Shown: piece by piece, positions 4,317 through 47,800 of the stretch
How positions within the stretch are numbered: position 1 is the first letter of the stretch
How the letters are laid out: every line of letters starts with the position of its first letter
Source of the DNA: Agrocybe praecox
Taxonomy: Eukaryota > Basidiomycota > Agaricomycetes > Agaricales > Agrocybaceae
NCBI GenBank assembly: GCA_964017145.1
Contig: OZ024841.1
Location: 3,472,001-3,536,000, forward strand
Direction: 5' to 3'
DNA: 64,000 nt
Made by a program: the position numbers and the translations under genes
Notes under the pieces: generated by a model
What the model saw: only the letters and a program-made list of their open reading frames with translations
Told to the model about the DNA's origin: nothing
Databases searched by the model: none

Positions 4317-4544
4317 TTAAATAATTATATAAGTATATAAAAAATCATGTATATTATGCATTCAAATTAATGAATTAATTTTATTTCGCTTTTTTATGTT
4401 TTTTTATGCAAATCTTATGTTTTGGTAAATGTTATGTTTTTTTGACATAAGTGACCATGCAAACAACAAGTTTCTACTAAGTTTGACAAGATTAAAGTAT
4501 TGGTTCAAGTCTTCATATGATTCAATCCATGTAACAGTGCTTTA

Positions 4545-13470: not shown

Positions 13471-14560
13471 CGTACGGACACACTCAAAGCGCACAGCTGT
13501 AAATATCAAAATACCAAAAACATGCCGCTTGTCTAGAGAAAAATGTTTGGAATTAGAACGAACGAGTGAATCAAAAAAACGACGAGCGGAACTTGGACGC
13601 AGAATTCCACACAACGACGACGAGATAAAGCTAAGAGGACGTTGGTTGGGAGGTGTGAGAGAAACGAAGGGCAATGAGGAAATAACGACAAAAAGTGGGA
13701 AGTGGGAATACTGAGAGAAAGAGAGAGAGATGCGTCAAGAGTTTACCAGAGAAGTGACTTATAGACTCGGAGATAGATATAAGTAGCGGGCGTTAAATTC
13801 CGTGAGAGTGGTGTCTGACAGATTATGATACATCGAACACCGAACACCGAACATTATGTGAAGGCTAACAGAACGATGATTGTGAAATGACTTGGGAGCA
13901 AAAGATAGAGTTAGCACAGTTCGACGGAAGTGACACGAAACACGGAGAGGAGATGAACGGAATAAAACAGTTACAAGATACGGCCGGTATAGAGCGGAGA
14001 GAGAAGCAATTGAGGCAGAGGAGAAAGGAAAAAAAGGAGAGCACGATGGGGGATGGAAAAGTCGATAGAGGGGCAGAATGGGACGGGACGAGAAGGCAAT
14101 GGATATAGAAGATGCGTATATGTACAAAAGACGACGACAATGAGAGAGGTAAAAGGAAAATCAGAGAGGTGGAAAAAATTATCGAAGGTGAAACAGAGAC
14201 GGGGGATATGTTTGAACAATTACGGAAGCGAATATAACAGGGGCGATCCGACGCAAAGAAATAACGCGCACCATAGCCGCATGGAATGACTTCACCAAAT
14301 AGCGATGACGACGAATGGAAGATGGAAAGACAGACGTGAGTGAAGGTGAATGATCCGACGGAAAGACATAGGGATTTGATCCGAACCCTAACCCGAAATG
14401 ACATCACGTACGTTCGTATTCGAATTTCGACCATCAGCTTGTCTTTTCCTTCCTTTTTCTCAACTATTTTCTTCGATCTGAATCCTACGCGTCAAGTTGC
14501 TGAATGCGCGAGTCATTGGACGAAATGTATAAAAGCATCGGAGGATGCACATTAAATGAA
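13471..14560. repeat. Purine-rich arm with CCCTAACCC core (copy 2)
   Basis: A/G-rich DNA ending in TTTGATCCGAACCCTAACCC at about 14376, followed by ACATCACGTACGTTCGTAT. A short C/T-rich stretch then leads into the first kinase pseudogene. Confidence 0.65.
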
Positions 14561-14649
14561 ACGAAATGACGCATAACAAAGTGAAACGACCAAGATGGAG
14601 GATATTGCTGAGGAGGACGAAGTAATATGGGAGTGGGATGGTGGTGGCG

Positions 14650-17268
14650 CAGGGAGGACACGCGTATAACGCCATGCCAATACCCCGATACAGAGTTCGC
14701 CGGCGCCTCTAGGCTCATCTTATAGACGCCAACAGCAACGCGCCACCGTTGCTCTTTCTCGGAACCAGTGGAATCACCAGCAGAGCCGGCCAGTACCCAG
14801 CTGCCCATACACGTCGAACCATCCCCAAATCTGGGCCGTATTTGCTCTTGCATACCAGTTTGGAAAGGTCAAGCTCGGTCTAGCGACAGTACCATTAGAA
14901 TGAGGTCTTAAAGGTGTGTTTTCTTACTCCTATCTTTTCCTTTTTCGTGGATGGCCCAAGGCCCGGCGCCCATGCATCATGGGCCATCTTCTTGCATTCA
15001 ACGCTATCATTCACATGTATTACTGCGAATAAATTTTATTCATCCTCTCCGTTTTTTCTATCCTATCTGGACCTCCATTCTCGCGCTTTGTTGGCGCCAG
15101 CATTTGTGGCAGAGGACCCGCAGCATACGTTCGTTTCTACCTTCAAGCAACCATTTTTTTTTCGTTCTCTTTTCTTACGCACCAACCTGCGATGCTTCTT
15201 TTCAAAATTATTTTACTGACTATTATTCCTTCTCCGTGCGCAGACGCCCGAATTGTCCGACTATACGAACCCGACAAATACATCGGTATACTCCTGGAAT
15301 ACGCCTCTTGAGGCGAACTAATCGATCACATCCTCGCGCACCGATACCTGCGCGAAAAATACGCAGCTAAACTCTTCTCCCGAATCGTGGTGTCTGCCTA
15401 CATCCACCAAAAAAGGAATCCTCCATCGCAGAGCGCGGAGCCATCGTTCGGGGGCGATAATGCGTCGTCCAATATCGTTCCGCCGGTTGTTACCATCGCC
15501 GTCGCTGGTTAGACCAGCACCACTGTACCCAGGCCACTCGTAGCTGTTCGACTCAACCAGAATACCTATATAAGAGTTCGCCCTCGTCACTCGCTACTGG
15601 CATCGTCAGCGACCCATTCACATCGCTCCTCACTTTCCCTCCACTTTATATCGTTTCCAAGCGGGCTCGTAATGAACCTCAGCCCGCTACACTACTAAAT
15701 AGGAACATGCAGACATACCATCCAGGTCGAATACGATTCGGAGCCAAAGGAACGAGGAAGGAGACAGTCGGGTGTGGGTAGGCCCAAGGGGTCTACTACT
15801 GCAAGGAAAGAGAAGGAGAAGACCGTCCCTAGCCTGCCTTCAGCACCAGCACTAGTTCCAGGTCCACCAACAGCTTATCGTGTTCCTACGGTTTCAAGTG
15901 CACTATCCCCAACACCAGCACCAGCACCTGGGTCGCTTCCTCCTATCCAGATTCCAGCGACGACGGCTCCGGTTGTTCCTGCCACGCCGTTCCTGCAGTT
16001 TGCGCCGAACAAAACTCAGATACTTCATGAGTTAGTAATGCTCAAGGAGCGGGCCATAAGAGGAGGAAATCGAGCTTTAATATTTTGGTGGCAAAGATGC
16101 TGGGGCCAGCGCGAAAGAGGGTACTGGAAGTCCGAGCATCAGTGCTACGTCAAGTACCGCATCGGAGGCGTCTCAGCCTGATTCGCCTATGGATCCTACG
16201 AATGACGGAGAGAAGAAGGGCAAGACGAAGGTGAAGGAGAAGAGAGAGGAGGAGGGAAAAGGGTACGAGTGGGAGGATGAGCACCCTTCGCGTTATGGGT
16301 GAGCCTCTCAGCAGGTCCATTAAGAGGCGGTCTCAGAACCAGAAGACGCCAATTAGCTCTGTGTATCCCGCGGGCACCACTACCGCCGTACCAGCTACAG
16401 CCGAGAATGCCAACGCGAGTTTGCACCGACCACCAATGCCCACGTCTATGCCATTCCCACCTGGTGCAGCGGCACGCTCGACGTCCATGGATGCAGAGCC
16501 TCGTTGCTCCTCCTGTGCAGATGGTGGTTACCACTCCAACTTCGCGCGTTTCGCGCCCTGGACCTCCCACACCTGTTCGCAGCGAGACGGCTGCTGCTGC
16601 TGTACCCACTATAGCTACCACACCCGTTGCATCTTCCTTGGTTTCTAGGTGCAGGAGTAATGTTGCTATGGGCAGCAGGGACCCCAAACATCAACGACAG
16701 ACGTCGACGTCGTCGAACAGGCTTGGTACCTTTGATGGGCTCAATCCGTCTCCGTCGTGGCAAGCACAGCAACAACAGCAATACCAACAGCATTCTGTCC
16801 CACCTCATCCTTACGTTCAACTGCGTACCCATCACAGTGCGGTGGATCAAACGACAATCATTACAAGGCCACCACGGGTTATGTCCTCCTGGACAGGGGT
16901 CGTTCCCTTTTACCACTGCCTCTGGTTCTGGCGCGGTTGGACCAGCATATGACGATCCATCGCAGGACGTTGAGGATGAAGTGCGGTTCTGCGTCGAGCT
17001 GACGAGGTTGGATAGCTTGTATGATACGTTGAGGCAGTATGTATTCTTTTCTTTCTTTTCTTCGATTTTTCTTTTCCGATTTCTCTTCGTTCTTTTCGAT
17101 CTGCATTTTCTGCTGGTGTCGAGACCGAGTTTTCACATCAACAGTTTGCTCCTTCTTATTTTCTTCTCCCCGTGTTTTCACCTTTTGTCCGGGCCATCAA
17201 TTACATATACATTTATTTTTATTTTTTTCATTTACAGGCTTGTGGACCTTTCGGCTACTCATGCCTAG
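14650..17268 (+). pseudogene. KIN4/SNF1-like Ser/Thr kinase pseudogene K1
   Basis: Degenerate copy of a CAMK-type protein kinase gene. Around 15245-15420 the frame reads ARIVRLYEPDKYIGILLEYAS, then TGA at 15309-15311 where Gly of GGEL is expected, then GELIDHILAHRYLREKYAAK: kinase subdomains IV-VI. Upstream, 14740-14860 matches the N-terminal region of the other copies. Downstream are Pro/Ala-rich linkers (15774-16010, starting MGRPKGSTT, an AT-hook-like GRPKG), a Gln-rich stretch (FDGLNPSPSWQAQQQQQ), VFPFTTASGSGAVGPAYDDP-like C-terminal sequence (frame-broken) and a last exon ending RLVDLSATHA at 17268 behind an intron (about 17039-17237). Several frame changes separate these pieces and the catalytic loop is missing, so the copy cannot make a kinase. 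Confidence 0.75.
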
Positions 17269-21334: not shown

Positions 21335-23914
21335 TCATGTGGCAGAGAGACCATCATCCAACCCAGCCCCGACTCGATCAAGGTAAGTAGTTATTGCTCG
21401 GCGTGCCCGACGGCTGAGTTTGGGGAACATCATTGACATTTTTGCAAAACATTTAGTTCTGCAAAGATCGACAAGTATAGGAAACCTGGCTGCCAGTGGA
21501 AGTATCTGAGGAAGATCTTCCAGGAATTCCTTGTATTTGAACCACAACTGCTTGTCTGATTCAAACAGTCCGAGTTTCCATTGTATTGATTCCTGGACGG
21601 ATTGTACCGGGAAGATTTCGCATAGACCTGCATTGATGAGCTTTGCATACAGAACTAAATGGATAGATCGTTGGCTGCGGCTGGAAGAGTATTGACCAAG
21701 AAGAACAAGTTTGTTTGGAAGGTCGTGTGATGATGTTCGCCTATGCCACTTCCAGGGACACATCCATCGCTTTTTCCTATCAATCCAATGTAGTTTGAGG
21801 TGTGATTCAGCTTGTTGGTTTGTATGTGAGGCATCAACCAGAAAGGTAAGACAATGGACTGCCGCTTTAGATGTTATGTGTGATTTTTCCTCGTCACTGA
21901 GAGGGATCAAGAATGTGTCATGGAAGCGAATGAAATAAAAGGCGCTTCCTAGGCCTTTTAATGGAAAATAATTTAGACCTGGGACCCGAAGTTGGTTTAT
22001 AGCAAAGATGTAATGCACCTCCCAATCATTGTTGTATTGATTACGAAGCTCAAAGAGGGCCAAGTTGTAAAATGTTAGAGCATGGTTGTGATAGGTGCCT
22101 ACTGAAAGATGCCCGTCATCCTCCTAAAGAAAAAAAAAAGCGATGTAAATATTTAGCTTCCCATACAAATCAATATGTAGAAATTCTTACAAGATCAAAC
22201 ATGATTCCAAACAGGTTGTTAAGAAACATATCTTCCACATCTTCCCAAACCTGCTGTTGAAAAAGGCTTTTGCAGTAAAGTTTCATGGGGAAATTGGTCG
22301 CAGCAATAAAAAATGCTGCATAACTGGGTTCAAACCAATCAGATTCAGGGATTTTAAGATCAAAAGGTTCAAGCATAGTGTTGTATCCTGCATCAGACGG
22401 GCATCGTGGGCCATTATATCCCTCTAGCAGTACAGTGTAGTCAGAATAATAGCATGTTTTTCTTGCATGATGAAAGTTCTGACCTGAGAATAGCTCAAGT
22501 AATCGAAGAAGATGCCCCGCATGTGTCTCTGCTCGATTTTTTGCAAGGTCCTTTGACCGGTGTGCGTCAAATAGAAAGTCTCCGAAGGACTTGTGAAGCA
22601 GAGTTGCTATTCGATAACCCATCCGTACAACGGCCGTGAGATCGGACAACACAACCTCTGCTTTCCCGTCCTCAAGATTAAGACATACATCAATGGCTGA
22701 GGCAGTCATATCACCATATAAGGCAAGGAATGCCATTATATCCGCAGATAGTGATGAATCTTCTGTGCTATTCAATAAATGCATATAGAGAGCATCGAGC
22801 TGTGCGAAAGGCAGGTCCTTGAAAGGAGGGCGGAGGCCAAGCACAGCATCCAGACGCTGATGAGGCCGATGACGGGGGGAATTGAGATATCCAACTACTG
22901 TCTTCGCATACACAAACTGGCCGGAAGACTTGTACACGAGCTCAGTGATCTGGTCCGTGGGAGGCCAGTGAGGAGGTATGGAATCCTTGAATATATGACC
23001 TTCACAAATCTCAGCAAATTTATCGCAGAGATAGAGCCGAATATCATAATTCGAACTGTAGTCGTCTCCCAGGAATACTTTGAATAGTGTCGAATTCAAC
23101 TTTTGCGAATTAAATGTGGTGGATATGTTGCTCTCCGGACGGCTCAAGACAAGAATGCGAATTGGAAGTGGGGAAATGGTGATGATGTGATGTAAAGATT
23201 CTAATATATCTTGTTGGCTTGCTTTGTCCACGCACTCGTCGAGGCCGTCTAGGACAATTAACTTGGGTGCGGTTTGAGGTGAATTGGTGTAGATTGCATT
23301 TAACGGATCTATGACAAGGGCCGTGAACTGAGTACGCAAAGACTGGGTGGAAATAAGTGGATCACACTCGATAAAGTCACAGACGAGCCTCCGGAAATGG
23401 GAGTTTCGAGCACATATCTGGTACGAAATTGTCGGCACGAGTGATTTTGAGTGGTTCCGTGTGGAATCGCTCGCGCCAAAGAAAAAACTGGCAAGTAGTG
23501 TTCCCTCCTTGGCGCAGCGTTCGCATACGCTTCTCCCAATCGCGGATTTGCCAGCTCCTGCGGCTCCAGTTACCCATGTGATGAATTTATCGCGATTTTG
23601 TTCGTCCAACCCTGCTACCCAGTCCACGAGTGTTTGGATAATTGCGACCCTAGTTCCCGGATGGCATTTTGGAGGATCAACGATGTGCCCCGAGTTGTGC
23701 AGGGCATTGGGTGCGGCAGCTTCAACCAAACGATCAAATCCACCTGAAAATAATATTCCATGTAAAGGATGTATGCGCTATATCGTAAGCCATACGTACT
23801 CTTTTCCCCGGTGTGAACATGGGTCGAACTGCTGTGCATCGTAAATGATCCTCCAGCGACGACGACCTTTGAAGACCCAAAGAAAGATGCAGAGGTTGGT
23901 GGTATATCAGACAT
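21335..23914 (-). CDS. NACHT NTPase / NLR-like protein N2, 818 aa
   Basis: Paralogue of N1. Exons are 23914-23800, 23743-22191 and 22123-21335. The first intron (56 nt, GTACGTATGG...TTTTCAG) is not a multiple of three, so here it must be removed to join THVHTGEK to GGFDRLVEAAAPN. The second (67 nt) has a GTAAGA donor. Walker A GAAGAGKSAIG and Walker B LIVLDGLDEC are intact, as is ILVLSRPE. The C-terminal exon (263 aa) begins EDDGHL, has a divergent middle after LYAKL, then the conserved LPLAARFPILVDLCRTKC and ends GAGLDDG plus LSAT. Compared with N1 it lacks about ten residues in the region 430-460 and has a single C-terminal block. It looks intact; expression is unknown. Confidence 0.85.
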
Positions 23915-24056
23915 GTTCGACAATTGACTTGATGTTGGGGTAGGATAAAGAACAGGATCGAGTAGCAAGCCTTTCGAAGGGCAATCATCGTCCCGGTGAA
24001 TCGCATTGCCGACCACACGTGTGCAATTTCCACGTTTAAATGTGTCCAACGCGTGT

Positions 24057-24065
24057 TATAATTAG
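24057..24065 (-). promoter_or_regulatory. TATA-like element upstream of N2
   Basis: TATAATTAG on the plus strand (CTAATTATA in gene direction), 143 bp before the N2 ATG. It is preserved with its CGCGTG neighbour at N3 and in weaker form at N1. Confidence 0.4.
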
Positions 24066-26300
24066 TCGTTCTAATTTAGTCTATGTAAGTGCGACGTAAA
24101 GACATGTCGTCGGGAATCGCACCCCTCCTTTTACGATATATGTAGCAGCCGCCGCAAAGAAGCCACAGAATACATATTCTCGTCCCCCGCTCCCTCATCG
24201 GAGAGTAATTTATGATGCATAGTATGCGTGTTGAACGTTGATTGATCATAGTTGTAGGGCGCGCCAGTATGGCACCTAAAGGATGTGAAGGAGGACAAAA
24301 ACGATAGATTAGAGGTGCAAGAGTCGAGAGAAGAAACGTGAACTAGATAACAACGAACGAGCACGCTGGGCACAACTCGGCTTCTTAGATGTATATTGTT
24401 AGGCGGATGAGAGGGTCAACACAAGATCACAATGCGCAGGCGCAGGGAGAATTTTAGTTCTTCGATTGGTAATGATTCAAAGTCAATGGTCATATGCACA
24501 TAAAGAGATCGATGAGAGACGTACAACAAGCACGGGGAGATCAAAGATGAGACTAGATTATGCGGATAACGCACAACTAGCTCTCTGATCTGCTTTGTTC
24601 AACCAAGATTCAAATAGACATACGAAGTCAAGGAAAGACGTACTGCAAGAGAAAGAAGATAATGGGAAGTATAATGTGGCTCTTCGCGCGATCACGAGAA
24701 AGGCAGAGAAAAGGTAAGAGAGAAGATGGGAATGATTGGATCGGATAGGGAGAAAGGGAAAGAGAGGGCGTCGTACAGACCAACCAGACCGAAAATAAAT
24801 CGAAGAGAGAGAAAGCAAAAGCGGAATAATGAAGCTATTGCGAGGGCATCATAGCAAAACGTTGACGAAAACAAGCATGTGAATCACTGAAACGTGACCT
24901 GGATCAGAGCGGACGACAAGGGGGAGCCCCCCATGCATTGTCTTGATGAAGGGTGTGCGGGAAAGAAAGAGCATTGTAATGCTAATAGGCATGCAAATGC
25001 ACATCCACGAGGGACCGAGAGAAGGGAACGAAGAATGAGAATAAAAAAGGCGAGCGCTCAAACGTGCAAGTGAGGAGGAGGTGACTAGTAAGGTATTCCG
25101 ATGTCCAAAAATGATAAAACGAACGCAGTGACGGGTGAGCCGGAAGGAATTGAGTAGTTTTAGTAAAATCATAACGCGCACAGCGAGAGGGGCATTCAAA
25201 GAGAGAGAAGAAATGGAGACATAATGGGATTTGATGCCGAGGAAAAGCGGTTGCGTGATGTGGGAGAGGGAGAGACGAAGAGCGGGAGAGTAAAAAAGAA
25301 GCGAATAGAACGAAGGTAGGCAATAGACATAAAAAAGAGGAAGAGACGAAGTGAGGATAGATACATGTGAACATAGATAAGAGGAGCAACCGCAAGGAGA
25401 GTTGTCGGAATCGTACGCTAGAAAACAGTATGCACCAAGTGACGTGTAGACTGGACCACGAATTCGATGTGTTGTTTTGGTGACATTACATCGCTGAGGC
25501 ATGCAGAGGAAAAAAAAGACGCCGTGATGGAGGTGAAAAGAGAAAGGAACGTGAGAAACAGAGAGGCAAAGAGACAAAACACCGATTGGCCAGGAGGAAT
25601 TATTATAAAGTAGTAATTGAAGGGGAGAGACGGCAATCCATGGGAGACAAGTCGACAAAGAGCCATGATGGGCGTGATAAAAACAGCTTGAAGTTTGAGT
25701 CGAAAGAAGCGTACGACCGAAGGGATTTAGTGAGAACTTGTGCGTGCAACATAGACGATACAAACTAAAGGAGGCAGATCAGGAGCATGCAAACACAGAG
25801 GAACGACACGGACGAGCGACACCACAGAGTAAGAGAAGAAAGGACGAATTTCGACGGTAACGCACAGTAAAAGAGAGGGGACACCCCAATCGCAGAGGGG
25901 AATGACGCAGATGAACAACAAATGTTCAAGACACCATTGACCAGAGAATTAAAAAACGTATCGAAATCACCAAACAGCGACGAATAAGACTTAGGGCGGT
26001 GGAAGGACAGACGTAACTGAACGATCCGACGGAGAGATCCGAGTTTTGATCCGAACCCTAACCCGAAATGGCATCACGTACGTTCGTATCCGACCAGAAG
26101 TTTGCCTCATTCTTTCCTTTTCCTCGAGTCTTTTCTTCCATTTGAATCTAACGCGTCAAGTTGCTGAACGAGCGGGTCCTTACAGAATAGTCATGAAAGG
26201 ATCGGAGTGCCCATCAAACGAAACGAAACGACGCATAACGCAGTCAAACGACGAAGGTGGAGGATATTGTTGGACGGAGTAATATGGCAGTGAGACGGTG
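24066..26300. repeat. Purine-rich arm with CCCTAACCC core (copy 4)
   Basis: Starts in the N2 upstream region. A/G-rich from about 24130 and ends in GTTTTGATCCGAACCCTAAC at about 26043, followed by GGCATCACGTACGTTCGTAT. The 200 bp after the core resemble 14400-14650. Minus-strand frames (such as 24849-25763) are Ser/Leu/Cys/His-rich artefacts. Confidence 0.65.
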
Positions 26301-29300
26301 GTGGCACAGGGAGGACACACGTACCGACACAGAGCCCATCAGCACTTCCGAGTTCGTCTAGACGCAAACATCAGAGCGCCACTGTTGCTCTTTCTCCGGA
26401 CCAGCGGGATTACCAACAAAGCCAGCCAGTGACCGCACATCCCAACTCCAATCAGTCGAGCGGGAACCCAAACGCAGGAGCACTTGCCCAGGTACCCATA
26501 CCCGACGTGTACGCGCACCCCGCTGCCATGGCTTATACGGCTGCCCATCCACGCCGTACGATTCCCAAGCTTGAGCCGTATTTGCTCCTGCAGACTAGTT
26601 TGGAAAGGTCTGCATAGTCAGTGAGGAGAATCGAGGTTTTAAATGTATGTTTTCTTACTATCTTTTTCTTTCCTCGTGGATGGCCTTGCACATGGGCCAT
26701 CCTCTTGCGTTTAACGTTATCGTTCCCATTTTTGCTGGGAATAAATATCTTTTAATTTTTTTTGTCGTTTCTATCATATTTAAACCTCTATTTTTGCGTT
26801 TTTTTTTGGCGCCAGCATTCGTGGAAGAGGAGCTGCTGCTGTTGTTCACTCAAAAATACTTATATCTTTTGGCTTCTTTTTTCATTAAGCCCTGACTTGC
26901 GTTTTTCTGCCATCATTTTTTTGCAATTTTATTTATTAACTAATCGTTCTTTTCAGTCGAAGAACATCGCGTATCAGCGACAAATGAGGCAGCAGGTACA
27001 AGTTGATCGAGCTGGCGGATCTGGTGCTCAACAGACGGGTGGCAGCGGCAGGGGAAAGGCGAACATCGCGCCCTCACCCTCCAGAGCGCAGAGCCAACGT
27101 CCAGAGGCGAGGAGCGAGATGTCTTCGTCGTCCAATGCTGTCCCACCGATCGTTACCACCGCCGTCGCAGGTCAAACCATCATCACCGCACCCACGCCCA
27201 CTCGCAGCCGTTCGATCCAACCTACCCCTACGAGAGTTCGCCCTCGTCTCGCTACTGGTGTCGTCAGCGGTCCATTCGTATCGCTCCTCACTTTCCCTCT
27301 ACCTTCTGTCGCTTCCAAGCCAAGGAAGCCCTGGCCAGAAGAAATTTGCCAGCCCTGCTGCGTTGAGTCTGAGCGGAGACGATCCGTTCGCATGCGGTGT
27401 CTGGGCTGCTACTTCCACTTCTAATGCTGGCGTGGCTTCCGACACCCTTTCACCACCTAGCCCCTGGAGATAAAAGCGACAAGAAGAAGGCCGATGGAGC
27501 GTTTGCTCATAATCGAATAGAATTCCGAGCTGAAGTCCACAAGTCCCCGGAAGGTGAAGGAGAGGCATAAACGGATGAGAAGGCCGTGCCTGGCCTGCCT
27601 CCTTCAGCAGCACCAGCACCAGCACCACCGACGGCTTACCGTGCTCCTGCCGCTCCGAGTGCATCGCCCCCAGCACCAGCACCAGCGCCTATCTCGGTTC
27701 CTCCTGTCCAAATACCTGCGACGACCGCTTCAGCTGTTCCTGCTACTCCAGTATCGGCAATTTCCGCCGCAGCAGACGCGAATACTTCATCAGTTTGTAA
27801 TGCCCAAGGAGCGGGCCATAGGAGGAGGAAATCCAGCATCAATATTTCGATGACAAAGACGCCGGGGCCAGGGTGAAAGAGGGCAATGGAAGTCTGAGCA
27901 TCAGCGCTATGCCAAGTACGGCGTCTGGTGCATCGCAGCCTGATTCGTCTTTGGATACTACGACCGACGGAGAGAAGGAAAAGACGGAGGAGGAGAGGAG
28001 GAGAGGAGGAGAAAGGGTACAAGTGGAAGGAACACGCCTACGGTTGTGGTTGAACCTATCAGCAGGTCTATTAGGAGCCGGTCGCAGATCCAAAAGACGC
28101 CAATTAGTTCTGTGTATTCCCAGGGCAGCACTACCGCCGTACCAACTACAGCGAAGAACCCGAACCCCAGTTTACAACCACCACCAATGCTCACGTCTGT
28201 GTCATTCCCACCGGGTGCGGCGACGCATTTGACGTCCATGAATACAGTGCATCGTTGCTCCTCCTGTTCAGGTGGTGGTTACCACTTCAACTTCGAGCGT
28301 TTCGCGCCTTGCACCTCCCACACCTGTTCGCAGTAAGACGGCAGCTGCTGCTGTACCCACTATAGCTACCACACACGTCATTTGCTGCCGGTGTCGAGAC
28401 CGAATTCACGCATCAACGTTTCAACTCCTGGCATCTTCTCAAATTCTTTCTCTTGGGTTCCTCTTTTGTCCGCGCCATCGAACATACAAACTGTTTTTTT
28501 TTTTTTTTTTCGTTCACAGGCGTGTGGACATTCGGTTACTCGTGCCTAGATGGCGAACGAATAGAATATATATCCTTACCAAGAACCCAGCATCGCCAAT
28601 AATGCAAGTCGAAGGGCAAGGAAAGTCTCGCTCCTTACCCCGCTACGCATAGCATGGAGGACTCGGATGTTGACAAAGGTATACCGCAGACGAGCCAGAG
28701 GAACACACCTATTGCGAATAGGAGAGGATACTCTGCTTCGAGCAGCACCATCAACCAGCCTGGCGAGAAGGATGGAAAGGAGCAGTAGAGCCTCGTTCCT
28801 CCTCATGTTCAAGTGGTGGTTACCACTTCGACTTCCAGGAAGGATGCAGTCGCCGTTCCATCTGGTTCAGCACGAAGAAGGAAAACCGTCAGGGTTGACA
28901 GCGACCACCATGATGGGTAGTGCAGCTTCCAACGGTGTCGAGAAGCGCGGATACCACTTCCCCGTCTGGTACATTCTCGACCTCGACGGGCGGGGTGCTG
29001 TGCGGGTTGTTGATGAGGATGCAGTTGTCCGAAGTCGCGTCGGATGTTCCTCCCATATCAGCAGCAGCGTCATTCCATGGTCCCTCAAACACACTGGCAT
29101 TCGATGGCGACCCTCTGCCCTCGACTGGTGGGCTTGTGGTATCTTCTGGCGTCGATCCTATCACGCCTTTCATGTCGCCTGGACAGGGGGTGTTCCCTTT
29201 CACCACTGGCTCTGGCTCTGGCTCTGCCTTTGGTACGGTGGGACTGGCATATGACGATCCATCGTAGGATGCTGGAGATGATGTGCGATTTAGCATCGGG

Positions 29301-30289: not shown

Positions 30290-30640
30290 AAACAAGAGGG
30301 TGGATGACCAGAGGAGGTTATTCGGGAGGATAGTTCCTTCGAGTTGGGATGTGCGGTTGCTGGCTGGCTTTGTTGATGATCCCGGACAGCTCGTGAGTGG
30401 GAATTATTTGAGGAAGAATATTGGGGTGCAGCGAACGAGGTTGGCCGTTGGGAGTGATAAAGATGGCCCAGCTGATTGTGGATAATCCCTCTGCTGCTGC
30501 TGGCTGTGTGCTGGGTAAGACGATTCGGGCGGGAAGAAACCTATGCAAAGGAAAAATCAATGTTTCATCCACGATGGAACCATTCCATTATCGCGCAGCA
30601 GCAGCAGAACACGCACTACGCACTATGCCTCCCAGCAAAA
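30290..30640 (-). pseudogene. Inverted fragment of the kinase gene N-terminal region
   Basis: Read on the minus strand, the fragment contains GGGCCATCTTTATCA, then CCAACGGC, GCACCCCAA, TTCTTC and ACTCACGAGCTG, then CAACAAAGCCAGCCAGC and CCGCACATCCCAACTC. These follow, in order, the 5' coding region of kinase copy K3 right of its insertion (44825-45060) and the matching part of K2. Its protein reading includes APQYSSSNNSHSR against APQGSSGHSYSR in K3. It is flanked on both sides by purine-rich arm sequence, so it was probably placed by an inversion or a fold-back recombination. It also shows the kinase region without the 6.4-kb insert. Confidence 0.65.
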
Positions 30641-35913: not shown

Positions 35914-36068
35914 ATTCGACAATCAACCTGGTGTTGGGGTAGGATAAAGAACAGGGTCAAGTAGCAAGTCCTAGACAAGGGTAATCATCGTCCCTCACAG
36001 CCCCACGGTGAATCGCATTGCCGAGCACACATGCTCTGTTTCCACGGTTAAATTTGTGCAACGCGTGT

Positions 36069-36077
36069 TATAATTAG
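36069..36077 (-). promoter_or_regulatory. TATA-like element upstream of N3
   Basis: TATAATTAG next to AACGCGTGT, 156 bp before the N3 ATG, in the same context as upstream of N2. Confidence 0.4.
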
Positions 36078-38160
36078 TTGTTCTAATTTAGTCTATACAA
36101 TTACATACACATCTCCACCTCCGTCCTTCCATAGAGTCCAGTTTTGTCGATTTATGTGCATATAATATATCTACTTCCACTCCAAAGGCACGTCAATGTC
36201 GAGAATCCTATTACGATGTATTAACCGCAGGGCACAAAGTAATTCATGACGTATATACACGTTGATTGATAATCATTGTAGGGCGCGAGGGGGCCGTACC
36301 AACGGGAGGTATGTTGATTGATAAAGATAGGAGGCCGTTTAAGAGCAATAATGCTGATGCGAGGGGAAATACGAGACTACGAGACGGTTAACACGAGATG
36401 ACAACGCACAAGCGTGGGGAGAATGCAGTTCTTCGATGTATGTCGCTTGACAATCGTTTGACATAGATATATGAAGATCTACAAAGATGGGTAGAGAAAG
36501 TGAGGCGGGGGAGAGAGTGAGCATGAAGAAAAGGGGACAAGACTGAACCACCACGGCTGAGCGGGGGAGAGATGAAACATGGCTGAGAACAAAAGGAACG
36601 AAGAAGATGGAACACAAAGGAAGGAAAATCAGCTCGTTCAACAGTGCCTAGAAAGGAACGTGGAACCGAGCGACAAACACTTGAACTTAAACGCTCGAAG
36701 GGAGGATACAAACATAGGTGATGCGATCCTAACTATGACTGGGCGGGGAGCGAGCAGGAGACGAATGGCAAAAGACAAAAGGGAAAGATAAAGCAAGAGA
36801 GATGAGAGATGAAACATCCATGAGATACGAGACGACGACGACACACATCTAGGTTTCTGATCTGTTTTTCTCAAGGCTCATATACATATATGAATTCAAA
36901 GAGAGAGGCACCGCAAGAGAAGAAAGAAAAGAGACATATGACTCGATTCTTTGTGATCACACGAAGACGTGGACAGGTGAAAAATAGGTAAGATAAAGGA
37001 GGGAAGTGATTGGATTGGCAAGGGTGAAAGTCGATGGGAGGGCATAGACAAGCCAACCAGACCGAACGAAAATGGAACGGACGCATCGAAGATAGAATAA
37101 TGAGAGTGATAAAATGAACGCAGTGATGGGTGAGATGTCAGCAGAATCATAACGCGCACAACGAGAGGGGTAATCGAAGAGAGAGAGTGAATGGAGACAT
37201 AATGGCATTTGATGCTTGGGGGAAAGAAGTTGCGTAGAGGGATAGACGAGAAGATAGAGAAGGAAGCGAACAAATCGAAAGGGAGGGAATGTAAGAGAAA
37301 CAAAGATTAAGGCAGCGAAAAGAGAGATTATGGAGGAGATGGCGATGGAAATAATGAAAGCGGAAGGGACAGAACGAGAATGGATATATATAAGAATAAA
37401 GATGAGAGAGGAAAACGCGAAGGAGAGAAAATGATTGATGAAATCGTACATTAGGAAAAGGGGTAGAAGCATGCAGAGAAAAAAGAGACGCCATGGTGGA
37501 GCAAAAGAATCGGATACGCAAGGATGCAGAGGATAGAATTAGAAAGAAGTGATTGAAGGAAAGAGGCGACAATCCAAGAAGACAAGGATCCAAGATGGGT
37601 GAAGAAAAGAGAAGGGTTTTCGGGAGTCTGAAAGTGATAAAGCGAACGTGCAGTTTAAGTCTACAGGAAGGTACGATTAAAGGAAACGAATGGTAACATA
37701 CACAGACGACACAGACAAGAGGAAGTAGATAAGGAGAGTGACAACACAAAGGAATAATATAGCCGAACGATACTACATAGTCTCGAGATCAATTATTGAA
37801 CGAGAGATGGGGAGAGAGTGAGAACGAGGTGAAGAAAGCACGACAACGCACAGTAAAAGACACTATACACCCCGACCGCAGAGAAGAGTGAAATCACCAA
37901 ACAGCGACGAATATGACGAGTGGACGATGGCTGACATGGACAATCGAAGGACAGACATATGTGGACGGTCCGACGGAAATTTGACACGGGTTTTGATCCG
38001 AACCCTAACCCAATATGGATGACATCACGTACGTTCGTATCCCACATTCCGTTTTTCTCGTTCTTTCTCTTTCCATGACTGTTTTCTTGGATCCTACGCG
38101 TCAAGCAGACGAACGGGCCTGTCATTATGCAAGATTTATGGGAGTGCACATTGAACGAAA
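36078..38160. repeat. Purine-rich arm with core (copy 6)
   Basis: A/G-rich from about 36300, ending in GGTTTTGATCCGAACCCTAA at about 37989, then CCCAATATGG and ACATCACGTACGTTCGTATC. The C/T-rich bit at 38040-38100 and ACGAAACGAAACC (38155) align with the entry to kinase copies K1 and K2. Confidence 0.65.
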
Positions 38161-38413
38161 CGAAACCTGTAACACAACGACGTAAATGGACTCGGAGGGT
38201 ATTGATGGGCGTATGGAGGACAAAGTGACATGGGAGTGAGACGGAGAGAGATGAAAGGAGGACGTGAAAACATACAGAACGATACTGCTATCTATGGAAG
38301 GACGAGGATCGTAAAGCGACAGCGGGGAGCGAAAAACCGGGACCGGGAGGGATTGCCAAGAAAACACGGAACTGATATACGGCAGCCATCATATCGCTTT
38401 CGAGCCCATTGTA

Positions 38414-38428
38414 AGTCTATGTCTGGTC
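38414..38428. repeat. Left 15-bp direct repeat (target duplication) of the 6.4-kb element
   Basis: AGTCTATGTCTGGTC, identical to 44814-44828. Both copies sit in the same reading frame of the kinase pseudogene (codons for SMSG). Confidence 0.8.
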
Positions 38429-38435
38429 TAGGCTC

Positions 38436-38450
38436 GTGACCAGCCGTTAC
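38436..38450 (+). repeat. Left terminal inverted motif
   Basis: GTGACCAGCCGTTAC, seven bases inside the left direct repeat. It matches the right end in opposite orientation with one base inserted and one mismatch. Confidence 0.55.
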
Positions 38451-38613
38451 CTGTCGAACTCCGCTTTGTGCCGAGAGCAGCCGCAAGCATCTCCAAGTAA
38501 CGGCTGGGACGTACGGGGCACTTTTAGTAGGGTCACGGTGTGACGAATAACTTAGTGGAATTTCGATGTAACTACCACGCCTGTACTCTGTGCTAAATAC
38601 CTCTCGCTCTTCA

Positions 38614-41600
38614 TCACTCGTCATCACTGTCTGAAAACCCACTATCATCCTCCTCCCCGTCATCATCTTCGTCTACTAACACACTATCCATGTCCAAAGA
38701 TATGTCAGCCTCATCACAAACCGGAAACAGCGAGTCATCAGGTGTGCCATTTTCGAGACCTAGCAGAACCTGTTCTACTTCGCTGACTGTTTCTCCTTCT
38801 TCTTCTACCTCGGCTTCCTCACTAACACTGTCTGTAATGCTGTCTCCTGCTATAACAAAGGGGTTCGGGTCACTGGTGGGAATGGGTTCATTGTCATGGT
38901 TCAATATGGGACTGGTGAGTGTGGCTTGCTCGGTGGATCTTGTATCTTTATTAACTTCGTCGACTATCACAGCCTTCGTCCTTCGCCGTTGCTGAAGGCG
39001 CAAGAATGCCTCATTATAGTCGGTAAGAGGGTTTTTTGTGCCTGTAACCAAACTCTGAAACCCAGTTACAATGACATCTTTTACAGGCAGGTCGTCGCTA
39101 TCCAGTACTCGACCTTTTTGTAGTCGATATACATTGTGCTCATCTAGGCTCTGCATGAGAGCTGCAATATCCTTTGATAGGTCAGGAGGAGCATGACGGG
39201 TTCCTTGGTCAGATCCGAGTAGGGTATGAAAGTTTTGCGCCAGCTTCCTCAGAACATCAACGCAGGGAGATATTTTGGCTAGCCATTCCCATGATGCGTT
39301 ACTTCCGCGGGCCTTATAGAAGGTCTATAACTTGGTTAGTATATCAACATTGTTGTCATTTTCGTGCGCTAAATACCTTGATCCAGAAATTGAGATGCTC
39401 TTGCGCTAGGTCTACTTCAACCCAACTGTTAGGGTTTCCCGTTGGATTAAGCAGCCAATTGTTGTATATAACTTCTCTGTAGGTAACCTCTGTAAGTAAA
39501 TAGCTTTTTGGATAGAAAATATTCTTACCTGACTTGTGTTGTCCAAATATTCGTGAGATGATGAATCAGATGTAACATCTCGTGCGCATACTTTGTCCTT
39601 CCATTACCTCGAAACTCTAATGCCCAGATTTTGAGAACTAATACCACTCGCCCTGAGTCTCCAGCTTTTACAGCGTCCGTAAACTCGCGGGATATCAGGG
39701 CATCACGCGTAAACAGAATGGCATTTTCGTATACCATGTCGCCTTCACTTGGTTTTACGTCTGGTTGACACTCTGCACGCTTTGTGCGTAGCTCTTCGAC
39801 AACAGAGGAATCTGTAAATTGATCATATATCATTTCAGCATGCTTTACTAAATCATTCCAACTAGAAAATTTATTGGCGTAGTCCTTTAGGGAACCAGTT
39901 TCCGTGACAATGAGGAGGCAGTGGAGTATTCGTGCATATAGCGAAACAAATACTAGATCTCGAGAAACTCGAAATGATGGAGGCGAAGTGAGGGTAATCG
40001 GTAGTCGTCCTAAACGTGTATTATGGAACCAAAGTGATCCTGGATTTCGTGATCCTGAATTAGGTTTGCCCCAGTGAATTTGCAGTAACCCAAGCATGTC
40101 CGCCATCTTTGCGTGAAATAGACCTGGAATCCACGTAGAGCCAAAAAAAGAATTGAAACCACTTTCTTGTCCCGCCCGAATATTTTCAATAGCTCGATAG
40201 CGTGCCAAAGATAACTGGTCTCCTGCAAGGAACCGAAGGCGTTGGAAATCATCAACTGCGGTCTCTTGTCGAATCGCTTCATCAACTTCAATATTGCCTT
40301 TTACTGAGGATTCGTCAATCTTCCATGTCGGTAATGGATGCAGGTTGGTTTGGTGAAGGTCGATTTTTGCTTCTGTGGATGGTTGATGTTTTTCGAGGTC
40401 CTTACGGAAATGCTGAAGTTCTGGGCCTCCGTGGGTTATGACGATGCGAAGAATTGTGAAGATTAAATTTGCCCGAAATGATGTTCCTTCCTGTTGCGTG
40501 TGAAGGATGTCTGATAATTTCAATTTTGGTGCTGTGAGGTAATTGCACTGGAAATCGTCAACACTGAGGTCTTCAATCCTAGCTTTGAATAGCGGGATTA
40601 AAGTTGCGCATGTACCATTTTCCTGAGAATCGTGCCGGCCAATGACTTGCTCTGATCTTCGAAACATCATATTAATGTTATCGTATACAGTAGAATATAG
40701 TCCAGTAGATGCGATAGAGCGTACTAGGTCACGCATTGAATGAGAAAGCTGATGGAGGGTCCCTGTGTAACTGTTTTTCTTCTGATCCTGTAGCGTTTCT
40801 TTCCGGGCGTTCTGGGTGATAATGTTTGTATAGCTTTCAGATATTCCAAGATTTGACAGAACTGAGATGGTTTGACGTTGTGCTCCTGTTGCAAAGAGAT
40901 AGAGACCAATCATTCTTTTGGATAGATTATTTGCGTGGCTGTATTCTCCGAGGCATGCCAAAGCTGTCGATGTTGTGATCTGTTATGAGTTAAATTAGCC
41001 TGAGTAAACTACGAGCTTGAACAAGTTGCAAGACGTACCACTTTTGTTCGTTCTTTTCTTCTTTCTGTATGCTCATGTTCAGCTCTCGGTGAAGTTGAAA
41101 ATGCCTCTAGAATGCGTAGGCTAACAGGTGTCATATCTGAAAGGTCTTTGTGAAGACTTAGCAGATTGAACCCAGTGACCAAGTCTTTATCGATAATACG
41201 GTCGCGGGTTTGAAGAATTTTTGATTTAGTTACTTGCTTTGCTTCATTGGCAACCAATTTCGCTACAAACGCTATTGCCCACGCCGTAACCTTATTGCTG
41301 CTTCGTGATGATGCCCACCATTCGAGGATTTGGGTTATGTCGGTATTGGCAAAGAAATCGTGCCAGCGTATAGTTCCTAACCCATTATCTGGATCAAAGA
41401 TAAATGTAAGGAACTGTCCAAAGCGAACATTCCTGGTCTTCATAATCTGCAAAATTTCTTCAACCGACCTCCTCAATTGCTCTTGTTGCTCCTCCGCCTG
41501 TTCAGCTTGTTTTCTTCTCGCCTTTTCCACAATTTTGGCGTTGCGTTCTTTCTTTGTAGCACCTGTTATAGGGCTAGTATACTGAAGGCCATCACTGGTT

Positions 41601-41818
41601 ATGCCATTCAGAAAGAGACTGTCCTCATCAAATTGGCGACGAGTTGGAGTTGACTCCTGGTAAGAGTCTGAGGCTGAACTATGTTGGATTTGGTGCGGTG
41701 GACTCTCGGGAAAAAGAGCAAGGCGCATTGACTGCTCCAGACTTGGAAGCGGGGCGAGAACATCATCAGATGAGAAATCAATGTCTGTTAATTCAGAATA
41801 TGGTGATGATAGTGGCAT
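38614..41818 (-). CDS. DUF6589-type protein, 1013 aa, candidate recombinase of the element
   Basis: Four exons: 41818-41039, 40979-39529, 39476-39377, 39324-38614; introns are 52-59 nt, GT...AG, phase-consistent. The ATG at 41818 gives MPLSSPYSELTDIDF; the frame extends upstream only with a GTG. Residues 105-150 form an Arg/Lys/Glu-rich helix, likely coiled coil. The body has the hallmarks of the fungal DUF6589 family: TGAQRQTISVL, YDNINMMF (Asp about 360), GRHDSQENGTCATL, IDESSVKGN, AGDQLSLARYR (Asp about 514), FHAKMADMLGLLQIHWG, NPGSLWFHNTRLGR and GRTKYAHEMLHLIHHL (Glu about 727), then NNWLLNPTGNPNSWVEVD and HNVYRLQKGR. The C-terminus is acidic (VDEDDDGEEDDSGFSDSDDE). The family has no established function; spaced Asp, Asp and Glu in conserved motifs would suit an RNase H-fold transposase, which is inference. 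Gene intact. Confidence 0.85.
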
Positions 41819-41948
41819 TGTGGACAAAGCGAGGACAAGGTGCAAATATAAATGTATTGAAAAACAAGTTTGAAGTGACACACTGATGATCGAAAGTCCA
41901 GATCAGTGACCCGCATTCTTCCTCAACCCAACTTCAACCTCTACTCCA
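41819..41948. promoter_or_regulatory. Shared 130-bp divergent promoter region
   Basis: The only sequence between the start codons of the DUF6589 gene (minus) and the helicase gene (plus). It must hold both 5' UTRs and both promoters. ATATAAATGTATT at 41846-41858 could act as a TATA box. Co-regulation of the two products is inferred from this arrangement. Confidence 0.55.
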
Positions 41949-44441
41949 ATGACCCTTCCACGAAAACACGTATCCAAAACTATCAGAAAACTGGCCCGCG
42001 ATCGTGATATTCCAAAGACAAAGGCATGGCAGGGACTGAAGGACAAGGATCTCGAGAATCTCGAAACCAAACTAAAAGAAAGATTTCAGTGGACGCATAC
42101 ACCTCGAGAATTCCAATTAGAAGCCATAAAAGGACAGCTAAAACGCACCGATGTTCTTGTACATGCTGGTACGGGTTCTGGAAAGACCATGATTGCTGCT
42201 GGACCACACGCAATGGTCGATGTCTCAAGAAAAATGGTCACCTTGATGATATCGCCATTGATAGCCCTGCAAGAAGAGCAAGTAAGATGCAAAAACTATC
42301 TGAAATTTTTACAATGCTTACCTCATTCTTCTTTGTACAGGCAAAAACGTTTCAGACCGAGTTTGGATTGTCCGCAGTGGCAATTAATAGTGCACATGAT
42401 GGCTGCACTAACGAAATCATGGCCGTAAGTATTGGAAGCATCAAGCAGCACTGATTCAGACACTAACTATTTTAACGCAGAAAATTTGCCAAGGAGAGTG
42501 GCGCATAGTGCTCGTTTCTCCTGAAATCATCACCTCTCCAAAATTTCGTGACACGATTTTGCTAAACCCTGCAATGAGATCTCGACTATTGTCAGTTATC
42601 ATCGACGAGGCACATGTTGTCTCTCACTGGGGCTCAGACTTCCGCAAGGAGTATGGTCGACTTGGAAATCTGAGATCAATTCTTCCCAGCGGAATACCAT
42701 TCGTAGCCATGTCAGCCACCCTCTCAAGCCGTATCCGCAAAGATGTCCTTTCAAAACTCCAGTTCGGTGGCAAAGACTCGTTCATCAATCTTGACATGGG
42801 TAATGATCGTCCCAATGTTTCGATTGTTGTTCGCGCAATACATAATGCTATGAACACATTTAGCGACCTCGACTTTATCATACCGTCATCAATAACAAAA
42901 GGAGACGACATACCTTTGACATTTATCTACTCAGACAAGATTCACGACGGCGTCGGTATTGAAGGCCGGCTAACCACATTACTGCCAGAATGCCTTCGCA
43001 ATACGGGCCTGATACGACCATATAGTGCCGCCTTCAGCCTGGAGTACCGAGAACAGGTTATGGCCCGTTTTAAAGCGGGTGTTGTGCGAATTTTAATCTG
43101 TACTGACGCAGCTGGAATGGTAAGCCAGTTCTTGAAAACTTGAGATCAGCACGTCCACTTACATCATCACTTATAGGGTTGTAACATATCCAATATCGAC
43201 ATTGTGATACAATGGAAGTTACCATCTTCAGTGTCTTCATTTGTCCAACGAGCCGGACGAGCTGCACGCGATCCAACAAGAACCGGATTAGCTGTGTTAC
43301 TGGTCGAGAAATCGATATACGATGCAAACCTGATGAATCTGGACTTGGCAGAGAAGTCAGACGGAAAGCAAAAAGGAGCTGTGCGAGAATCATCGACATA
43401 CCCTAAGGCTCCCAAAGGATATGCAACACAACACGGTTCACAACGAGGGGCACACCATGGAAAGAGCGACGAGATTGTGATGAAGGCAGAGGTGTGTCTC
43501 GACACTTCATCGAAAGACGAAGGTTTGTACTCTCTGGTACAAACTGGAATCTGTCGACGACAAATTTTGACACAGATCTACGGAAATAACCCCCCTCGTA
43601 AGTTATTATACCAAGTTCTACAATATTTTGGACTCACATTAAACATGGAATAGAGCCAACAGCTTCATGCTGCGACCTGTGTGATCCCTCGCTCCTCAAT
43701 AAAACGCGCCCTGCTGCACCCGAGAGGACATCTAGAAAAGTCGCAGTCAAAACAGGTGTTCTCAACACGGGTGTGAAGACAGCCTTACAATTGTGGCGCC
43801 GGCAGACCTGGAAACGCGATTTCAAGGGCTCTATGCTCCCGCCCTCGGCCATTTTACGAGATGATTTGCTTGAAACATTGTCGTCGGTCGGCCCCATTGA
43901 GAGATTGAACGAACTCGAAAAAGTAACGGGCGAGGAATGGCCATGGTTCGGTCGATATGGAGATTCATTGCTGGACACAATGAAACAATTAAACATTGCC
44001 CCAATGCAGGCAAAGCCGCAGCAAAAACGCGCGGAGAAGAGAGGTGCAGAGGACAACGCAAACAACGACCGCATTGAGGTAAAGAAGAAGAAACCGAATG
44101 TCACAGTACCTGCTGTATCCGCATCAGTCCCGTTGACACCTGTCCATCACGCTGTATCCCAGGCGCCGGCTCCAATGCAACCAACGTTCTCGCGCATGTC
44201 GAGCTCATTGCCATACATGCCGGGTGCTGTGTATCAAAGTCCCTACATTTATTCGAGCCCCAACTGCACTCCATATTCAACCACTACAGCTTTACCCACC
44301 AATATGATGCCTTATTCACCTTACATGCCAGCTCATTACCCTCATTACCACCTACCCCCATATCCTTACTATCAAACACCCTCAAGAAATCCCATACCTT
44401 CGAGTTCTCAGCAACCTTCGTCCGATGGTCCCAGTAAATGA
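41949..44441 (+). CDS. RecQ-like DEAH helicase, 754 aa
   Basis: Superfamily 2 DNA helicase. Exons: 41949-42281, 42341-42424, 42481-43119, 43177-43597, 43654-44441; every join keeps frame. Motifs in order: FQLEAIKGQL (motif 0), GTGSGKT at 74-80 (Walker A), SPLIALQEEQ (Ia), VSPEII, DEAH at 181-184, MSAT to 219 (III), TFIYSDKI (IV), ILICTDAAGMG (V) and QRAGRAARD at 376-384 (VI). CRRQILTQIYG followed by CCDLCD near 498-503 is the RecQ-type zinc-binding site. No RQC or HRDC domain is evident. After a basic patch (RIEVKKKKPN) the last 120 residues are Pro/Tyr/Ser-rich and probably disordered. The divergent DUF6589 partner suggests the helicase acts in the same DNA transaction. No defects seen. Confidence 0.9.
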
Positions 44442-44796
44442 CCACTTCGTCACTGTTTATATCCCTTATAAACCTGTATAGACTACGAAAATTGAGTTTT
44501 TTAATATATATTACATTGCACACTACTTCTAGGAAGGCTTCTCAGTTGCTAATTACATGGATTTTTGGATGTGGAAAGATAGAGGAAAGATTTTGACGAA
44601 AAAAAGTGCGCGCGGAAAACACGAAATTATTCTAAGTTTTTGTCACACTGGGGATCCTCCAAAATCGTCCCCGTAACTCCCAGTCGTTAGGTGGTGATGC
44701 TCCATTTCGTAGTCCGATTGAGTTCCGTTTGATGGCCGTCGGAGCTTAGGAAAACTCTAAACGATGACAAATGACCAAGCTTGCGTAATCACCACC
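44442..44796. other. Right-hand non-coding region of the element
   Basis: Contains the helicase 3' UTR (TTAATATATATTACATT near 44500) and a subterminal region from 44640 with TGTCACACTGGGG. The left end has GGTCACGGTGTGACG at about 38531, an inverted partial match. CCCGTAACTCCCAGTCG at 44670 echoes the terminal motif. Confidence 0.45.
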
Positions 44797-44812
44797 GTAA
44801 CGGACTGGTCGC
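44797..44812 (-). repeat. Right terminal inverted motif
   Basis: GTAACGGACTGGTCGC, one base inside the right direct repeat. Its reverse complement pairs with 38436-38450. Confidence 0.55.
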
Positions 44813-44813
44813 G

Positions 44814-44828
44814 AGTCTATGTCTGGTC
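44814..44828. repeat. Right 15-bp direct repeat of the 6.4-kb element
   Basis: AGTCTATGTCTGGTC. The following CCATCTTTATCA matches the kinase fragment at 30468 (inverted), which shows the unoccupied arrangement. Confidence 0.8.
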
Positions 44829-47800
44829 CATCTTTATCATATCCAACGGCTCACGCAGCACCCCAAGGTTCTTCGGGTCATTCCTACTCACGAACTGGCA
44901 GCGGTGACGACGACAACGCAGGAGGACACACGTAAAATGGCATGCCAATGCCCCCGTCGCAGAGCCCACCAGTGCCTCAAAGCTCTTTTAAACGCCAACA
45001 GCAACTCTTTCTCCGAACCAGCGGGATCACCAACAGAGCCAGCCAGCGACCGCACATGCCCAGGTACCCACACCGGACGTTTACGCGCACCCAGCTGCCC
45101 TAGCTTAAGCGGCTGCTCCTGCATAGTTAGTGGGGAAAGGGGGGATAATGTGGACAGTACTGTCAGGATGCGCAAAATTGAGAGGGAAAGCGAGGTGTGT
45201 TTCTTTACTCCTATCTTTGCCTTTCTTCGTGGATGGCCCATGAGCGCTACCATTCCTACCTTTCACTGCGAATAAATCAATCAATCAATTTTTCAATTCG
45301 TCTTGTTTTTTTAATTCTATTTAAACCTCCATTTGCGCGTTTTGGGTGCCAGAATTCGTGGCAAAGGGGCCGCAACATTCGTTTGCTTGCTACTATAAAA
45401 CAACCGTTCATTCTCGTTCCTTTACCTGCGTTGTTCTGCCATCGTTCTTTGTAATTTTACGGACTTACATTTCTTCTCCATTCACAGGCCCTCAAGCACA
45501 TAAACATCGTCTGACTATACGATGGGATCGAACCCGAAAAATACATCGGTATGCCCCTCGTTTACAATCTTGTTTATTGGCTAACCATTCTTTCTCAGTT
45601 GAAGAGGGTCGCGTATCAACCATAAATGAAGTAGCAGGCACAAGCTGCTCCAGCGGCAATGCGAACGTCGCACCTATACCTTCCAGAGCAGAGCCATCGT
45701 CCGGAGGAGCGAGAGGTCCGCGTCGTCCAATGCCGTCCCACCTATTGGTACTACCGCCGTCGCAAGCCAAATCAGCACCACCGTACCCGCGCCCACTCGC
45801 AGTCGTTCGACCCAACCCACCCCTACGGGAGTTCGCCCTCGTCACTCGCTACTGGCGTCGTCAGCGACCCATTCGTATCGCTCCTTACATTTCTACCGCT
45901 TCCAAGCCGGCTGGTAACAAACCTCAGCCAGGTACACCGCAGAACAAGGCAGGCCCTGGCCAAAAGAAATTTGCCGGCCCTGCTGCGTTAGGTCTGAGCG
46001 GAAACGATCCGTTCGCATGGGTGTCTGCGCTGCTGCTTCCACTTCTAATTCTGTCGTGGCTTCCAACACCCTCTCACCACCTGGCCCCTGGAGATAAAAG
46101 CGACAAGGAAAAGAAAGCCCCAGGTCGAATACGATTTGGAACCGAAGAAAGGAGGAAGGAGGCAGCCGAGTGGGGGTATGCCTGCCTGTCTCCTTGCAGC
46201 AGCAGCACCAGTACCACTGACGGCTTATCGTGCGCCTGCGGTTCCGAGTGCACCAGTACCTGCACCTGCACCAGCGCCTATCTGGGTTCCTCCTGTCCAA
46301 ATCCCTGCGACGACAGCTCCGACAGCTCCTGCTACTCTAGTATCAGCAATTTCCGCCGAAGCAGACTCGAATACTCCCTGAGTTGGTAAAGCCCAAGGAA
46401 CGGGCCACAAGAAGGCGGAATCGAGCATCAATAGGATCGGGTTGGGCAAGATTTTCGGTGGCAAAGATGCTGAGGCCAGCGCGAAGAGACGAAGGAGAGG
46501 AGGAGGAGGAGGAGGAGGAGGAGAGGAGAAAGCGTACAAGTGGGAGGAGGAACACCCATAGCGTTATGGTTGAACCTGTCCGTTAAGAGCCGGCCTCAAC
46601 TAGAAGACACCGATTAGCTCTGTTTATCCAGAGGGCAGTACCACCGCCGTACCAGCTATAGCCAAGAACCCCAACGCCAGTTTATCACCGCCACCAATGC
46701 CCACGTCCATGCCATTCCCACCGGGTGCAGCTGCACGTTCGACGTCCATGAACGCGGAGCCCCGTTGCCCCTCTTACCACTTCAACGTTTCAACTTCGAC
46801 CGTTTCGCGCCCTGCACCTCCCACACCTGTTCGCAGCCAGGCGGGTGCTGCTGCTGTACCTCCCGTTACGTCTTCCTTCGTTTTTAGGATCGAGAACAAC
46901 GTTACTGTGGGCAGCAGGAACCGTGAACGCCAAGGACAGACCTCGACGTCGTCGAACAGGCTCGGTGCTTGCTATGGGTTCGGTTTGTCTTCGTCGTTGC
47001 AAGCACAGCAGCAAAGAATGCCATCCCCCCTCATCCGTAAGCTCAACTGCGTATTCATCATGGTGCAGTGGATTAGATGACGGTTCCGACGAGGCCACCG
47101 GCGGAGGTGCTTGGGAGTATAGGTGTTGGGCCGCACATGGAGAGCGAGTATGGGGTTAGGTGTATTAGGGCGAAGAAGAAGAGGAAGGATGCAGTCATTG
47201 TTCCGTCTGGTTCGGCTGCTGAAGGACACAGAAGGAAACTTAGACGGGCAGGATGCTTTGCGGGTTGTTGATGAGGAGGCAGTTGTCCGAAGTCGCGTAG
47301 GATGTTCCTCCCACATCAGCAGCAGCGTCGTCTCACGGGGCCTCTAACACACTGGTATTCATAACGAACATTCCGTCATCGTTAGCGAGCCTCTGCCCTC
47401 GACGGGTGGGCTGGTAGAATCTTCGACTGTGGATCTTATCGCACCTGTTATGTCGCCTGGATAGGGGGCATTCCCTTTCACCACTGGCTCTGTCTCTGGC
47501 GTGGTCAGACCGACATATGGCGATCCATCGCAGGAGGCCGGAGATGAAGCTTCGAAGTGCGGTTTAGCGTCGAACTGACGAGGTTGGATAGACCGAACAA
47601 TATGTATAGTTTGGATATGGAAGGTTGAAGGGAAAATTGAGGAGTTAAGGCAGTGCGTATTATTTTCTTTCTTTTCTTCGATATTTTTTCTCTTTTCCTT
47701 CTTTTTCCTTCTTCGTTCTTTTCGATCCGCAGTTTCTGCTGGTGTCGAGACTGGGCTCGTACATCAACACCTGCTATCTTCTTAATTTCTTTTTCTCGTG

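Follow-up and report, generated by a model that had tools for sequence, protein, structure and literature searches.

The AcademH lineage of Academ DNA transposons was reportedly set out by Kojima in 2020 (Mob DNA 11:15). In the excerpts of the literature on which we draw throughout, AcademH makes target-site duplications of 9 or 10 bp and AcademX of 3 or 4 bp, with ties to a helicase and a nuclease (PMC10045372). Most fungal Academ copies (1,568 of 1,938) are said to have identifiable domains, PF00270 and recQ_fam among them; the helicase domains are of the DEAD/DEAH and recQ_fam kinds, and such copies frequently pass for host genes in annotations (PMC6416283), and putative non-autonomous Academ elements are described as widespread in Marasmius oreades (PMC8290104). 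The helicase sources named for fungi are AcademH, KolobokH and Helitron (PMC10799480); KolobokH is fungal and has a RecQ helicase, Kolobok being marked by a 4-bp TTAA duplication and 5'-RR..YY-3' termini (PMC9587614). Here, we analyzed a 64,000-bp stretch of Agrocybe praecox DNA (the window; C2:3472001-3536000 of a searched genome of 59.17 Mb in 347 contigs), in which a DUF6589 gene and a RecQ-like helicase gene lie in one 6391-bp unit. This unit is most likely an AcademH-type cut-and-paste DNA transposon, with DUF6589 as its transposase and the RecQ-type helicase as its accessory protein.

The limits of the element were set from genome-wide end matches, the tips of the terminal inverted repeats and the duplications. 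Apart from the window copy, a genome search with the element as query gave many matches limited to the outermost ~137 bp on the left and ~260 bp on the right, a lower bound given that 40 of 146 candidates were scored. Left-end matches mostly begin at 38428/38429, and right-end matches mostly end at 44819, i.e., within the right-hand copy of a 15-bp identity, AGTCTATGTCTGGTC, found at 38414-38428 and 44814-44828. The original prediction had pointed to this identity and to inverted GACCAG(T)CCGTTAC motifs directly inside it, both of which were borne out, and had taken the identity for a 15-bp target duplication, which proved to be 9 bp flanking an element that ends in TAG...CTA. AGTCTA at 44814-44819 is the right tip of the element, complementary to the TAGACT tip, and AGTCTA at 38414-38419 is host DNA. 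A paralogous empty site, L041 at C2:3357.3k, holds GAGCCCATTGTAAGTCTATTTCTGGTCCATC uninterrupted, and the joined flanks of the element aligned to it with identity in 920 of 966 columns. Because the AGTCTA hexamer is already present in L041, the duplication is the 9-bp sequence alone, of which L041 differs in 1/9 bases. In the other 23 sites listed, the hexamer is absent from that place. The features of the element, in window coordinates, are as follows.

38414..38419, plus strand: host AGTCTA, present in L041; by chance equal to the right tip of the element, so that the repeat looked 15 bp long
38420..38428, unstranded: left 9-bp target-site duplication TGTCTGGTC, equal to 44820-44828; one copy, with 1 mismatch, in L041
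38429..44819, unstranded: whole element, 6391 bp
38429..38450, plus strand: left terminal inverted repeat TAGGCTCGTGACCAGCCGTTAC
38440..38507, unstranded: subterminal palindrome CCAGCCGTTACCTG (38440-38453) / CAAGTAACGGCTGG (38494-38507), 93% complementary; perhaps repeating the terminal motif as an inner binding site for the transposase
38614..41818, minus strand: DUF6589 gene, 1013 amino acids, 4 exons (introns 41038-40980, 39528-39477, 39376-39325)
41819..41948, unstranded: head-to-head intergenic stretch of 130 bp, presumed from the gene positions to be a bidirectional promoter
41949..44441, plus strand: RecQ-like helicase gene, 754 amino acids, 5 exons (introns 42282-42340, 42425-42480, 43120-43176, 43598-43653)
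44680..44699, plus strand: inner inverted copy of the right terminal motif, CCAGTCGTTAGGTGGTGATG, read by eye and unscored
44797..44819, minus strand: right terminal inverted repeat, the minus strand reading TAGACTCGCGACCAGTCCGTTAC
44820..44828, unstranded: right 9-bp target-site duplication TGTCTGGTC

A unit with these fixed inverted ends has inserted at new sites, the window copy at a previously empty one, with a 9-bp duplication. Left and right ends were paired by script in 33 cases (≤9 kb apart, loci fetched; partnerless single ends, with none ≤9 kb away in the stretches covered, and repeats of the same flanks were left out), and 24 of these pairs, whose lengths run from 112 bp to 6584 bp, are flanked by an exact 9-bp duplication. 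One more pair, the outer copy of L030, matches in 8/9 positions. Among the remaining eight, two join ends of different copies (L039 169-3154 and L040 2180-5839) and six have no duplication (L045, L027, L025, L024, L051, and L049). Thirteen of the loci (L049-L061) were picked for showing both ends in a search for the exact 14-mer TAGRCTCGYGACCA, which occurs 172 times in the genome, compared to 0 times for the reversed control. Base preference at the 24 target sites is weak. One copy is nested within another and has its own duplication, GGTAACGAC. Many non-autonomous copies that share the ends and keep little else also carry duplications, and because such derivatives insert with a duplication too, they were presumably moved in trans. 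L049-L053 are miniature copies of 112-197 bp with little beyond the two ends, three of the five having an exact 9-bp duplication.

At the other extreme of length, L033 (6491 bp, AGTCAGTCC) and L034 (6584 bp, TCCAAGGGC) have the two genes in the divergent arrangement of the window element and look autonomous, their frames having been read in part; the window element likewise looks autonomous. The copy at C6:690k lacks the middle of the window element and matches the rest over 1826 and 990 bp at 99-100%; dS (synonymous divergence) is about 0.02, a near-identity that points to recent movement or duplication. The internally deleted 99-100% copy of L029 (C6:688500-694400) has its right end outside the matched stretch and adjoins a second, inverted left end. 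L040 (C1:369500-378000) contains two copies with their own 9-bp duplications, CTTTGATCC and CAAAGTGGT; both target sites contain CCACTTTGATC, in opposite orientation and about 200 bp apart.

The two divergent genes had been called intact, and this held in that both are open frames that contain introns, with splice sites picked by hand. The helicase has the motifs GTGSGKT, DEAH, QRAGRAAR, and CCDLC together with PF00270 and PF00271, and its homologue P0122 (66% identical) matches the RecQ structure 4tmu in the PDB (E 2.7e-27). Among the matches listed, the closest relatives of both proteins are from Agrocybe pediades, at 65% for DUF6589 and 67% for the helicase. Relative to the copy on C13, the ratio of nonsynonymous to synonymous change (dN/dS) of the helicase is 0.14 (dS 1.04, 400 codons); so few amino-acid compared to silent changes are consistent with selection. 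The corresponding ratio for DUF6589 is 0.09, calculated from a dS (2.2) close to saturation, and dS is saturated for most other copies in this comparison.

That DUF6589 is a DDE transposase of RNase-H fold is strongly supported by the predicted fold and the conserved residues. Structures predicted on homologues have an RNase-H core with a helical insertion and conserved D, D, and E, and the proposed catalytic triad of the window protein is D360, D514, and E770. To place the Glu, residues were counted backwards from where the alignments to Hermes, the P element, and RAG1 end at the C terminus, using the catalytic residue numbers of these proteins. In P0001, E767 is invariant too, yet the position favours E810 as the catalytic Glu. 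Foldseek alone gave no significant match for the predicted DUF6589 structure, nor did Foldseek against viral models or a search of PDB sequences by DUF6589 profile. The PF20231 match covers residues 410-821 and begins beyond the first catalytic aspartate, D360, which suggests why the transposase went unrecognised.

A second lineage of the gene pair, at C12:456k, has a DUF6589 protein 22% identical to that of the window over 657 aligned positions, with the helicase gene tail to tail. When the flanks outside the genes were scanned for 7-11 bp direct repeats adjoining inverted ends, one place scored 17-18/20 end bases, the next best scoring 12. This defines an element of 6174 bp that terminates in TAGTCTCGGATCCAGCCG / TAGTCTCGAATCCAGCCG and has GCACTTTCC as its duplication. 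In the top-ranked row, this place is read with a repeat of 7 bp, and each end gains a base; the 9-bp reading was preferred because it gives TAG tips. Two DUF6589 elements that have diverged deeply thus share TAGnCTCG...CCAGCCG ends and a 9-bp duplication. In the C12:456k element, an exact inverted repeat of 38 bp lies about 100 bp inside the ends (L031+L062, C12:450900-462800; 4318-4355 / 10245-10282 of the joined stretch). Scans at the DUF6589 loci C5:2977k, C5:2970k, C8:1605k, and C12:363k, the latter two after extension, revealed no element ends; at C12:363k, a right tip resembling TAGTCTCGACACCAGC is present, but no left end pairs with it.

DUF6589 is common in mushroom proteomes, with at least 344 protein matches. 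At least 41 of the best 120 of these 344 share a contig size with one of the best 120 of 538 helicase matches, co-occurrence being judged on equal contig size in bp rather than on contig names, and the set includes contigs of 5792, 6886, and 7141 bp. In the five pairs that were read, the species agree: Agrocybe pediades (93519), Pluteus cervinus (6886), Hygrophoropsis aurantiaca (5792), Schizophyllum fasciatum (7141), and Leucocoprinus birnbaumii (69323), the last with the neighbouring tags NP233_g1885 and g1884. Among viral contigs, 100 pattern matches yielded 0 confirmed relatives, and no relatives were found in phage records.

The duplications of exactly 9 bp, in 24 of 33 pairs and again in the second lineage, the RecQ-like helicase with its PF00270 and PF00271 domains, and the DDD/E transposase suggested by predicted fold and conserved residues all agree with AcademH. 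Membership is most likely on duplication length, helicase, and fungal host, the comparison being one of published descriptions. This leaves room for a separate, unnamed superfamily, unrelated by descent to Academ, in which a DUF6589 transposase and a RecQ helicase make 9-bp duplications; 'DUF6589' had no mention in the literature searched, and 'PF20231' appeared only in an unrelated optics paper. However, the excerpted accounts of fungal Academ and AcademH match this element in the kind of helicase, the length of the duplication, and the fungal host, and we regard separate descent as unlikely. If it were true, a system with a hAT/P-like DDE transposase, TAG...CTA ends, and a helicase partner would be spread through agaric mushrooms, and many mushroom proteins listed as 'unknown' or as host RecQ would belong to one mobile system. 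A KolobokH element, which would share the RecQ helicase and the fungal host (PMC9587614), is very improbable: the 24 exact duplications all measure 9 bp, with no TTAA among them, the termini are TA..TA (TAG...CTA) rather than 5'-RR..YY-3', and KolobokH was rejected on both counts. Duplication length and helicase together fit AcademH and exclude Kolobok. A 15-bp duplication, for which the 15 identical flanking bases speak, has next to no probability, being refuted by L041, by other copies that end in AGTCTA at sites unrelated to this one, and by the other 23 exact duplications of 9 bp. Two neighbouring host genes within a chance repeat, a reading to which the intact open frames and nothing further would lend themselves, are hardly conceivable given the multi-copy ends, duplications, empty site, and nested insertion, which instead uphold the predicted self-contained mobile element.

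The insertion context had been described as a kinase pseudogene whose frame continues across the insert. In the joined flanks, one frame is indeed open over the junction (CKSMSGPSLSYPTAHAAPQGSS), with a stop about 20 residues on; a Pfam scan of four flanking open reading frames, which was not exhaustive, found no domain, kinase or other. The related fragment reported at 30290-30640 exists, with a 39-bp blastn match at 30384-30346 and a weakly similar minus-strand translation, but its divergence is too great for it to stand in as an empty site. Diverged copies of the flanking segment lie at 14300-16900, 23990-29220, and 36000-47500 of the window (mostly 65-79% identity, short pieces ≤91%), and the 95% identical copy is L041, ~153 kb upstream on the same contig; together they form a local array of segmental duplications. 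A NACHT/NPHP3_N-type open reading frame at 22170-23729 on the minus strand (PF24883, E 6.4e-26) resembles fungal NLR proteins.

For the AcademH-type element, we infer cut-and-paste rather than copy-and-paste movement. The DUF6589 protein would bind the TAG-initiated inverted ends, and perhaps the subterminal copies as well, excise the element, and insert it at a target cut with a stagger of 9 bases, which host repair would convert into the 9-bp duplication. The gene of the RecQ-type helicase lies head to head with that of DUF6589, and its product would travel along as an accessory enzyme and unwinding or repair aid, most likely by opening or remodelling strand-transfer intermediates, the element ends, or the gap left at the donor site.

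The observations of the original prediction are partly confirmed and its interpretation is partly supported. Its view that no named superfamily is built from this gene pair is probably wrong, since helicase-bearing AcademH (PMC10045372) and recQ_fam-bearing Academ (PMC6416283) appear in the excerpts. What is new is that DUF6589, until now a Pfam family without a known role, can be assigned as a probable DDE transposase with defined ends, in a kind of element that is most likely known. RecQ-like genes of agarics are thereby tied to mobile elements, which bears on gene counts and on claims of RecQ expansion. Exact ends and duplication length make copies testable for activity, and the two-gene system makes the role of a helicase in DDE transposition testable.

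The hAT (Hermes) and P element transposases resemble DUF6589 in predicted fold, with an RNase-H core, a helical insertion, and a DDE triad, at 6-11% identity over structural alignments. Their duplications are of similar length, 8 bp, and to our knowledge neither comes with a RecQ helicase. KolobokH, as excerpted, shares the RecQ helicase accessory and occurrence in fungi, and differs in its 4-bp TTAA duplication and RR..YY termini, compared to 9 bp and TAG..CTA here. The order of the two genes is divergent in some elements of this genome and convergent in others. In the accounts excerpted, AcademH is, like the window element, a helicase-encoding fungal DNA transposon, with a duplication of 9 or 10 bp.
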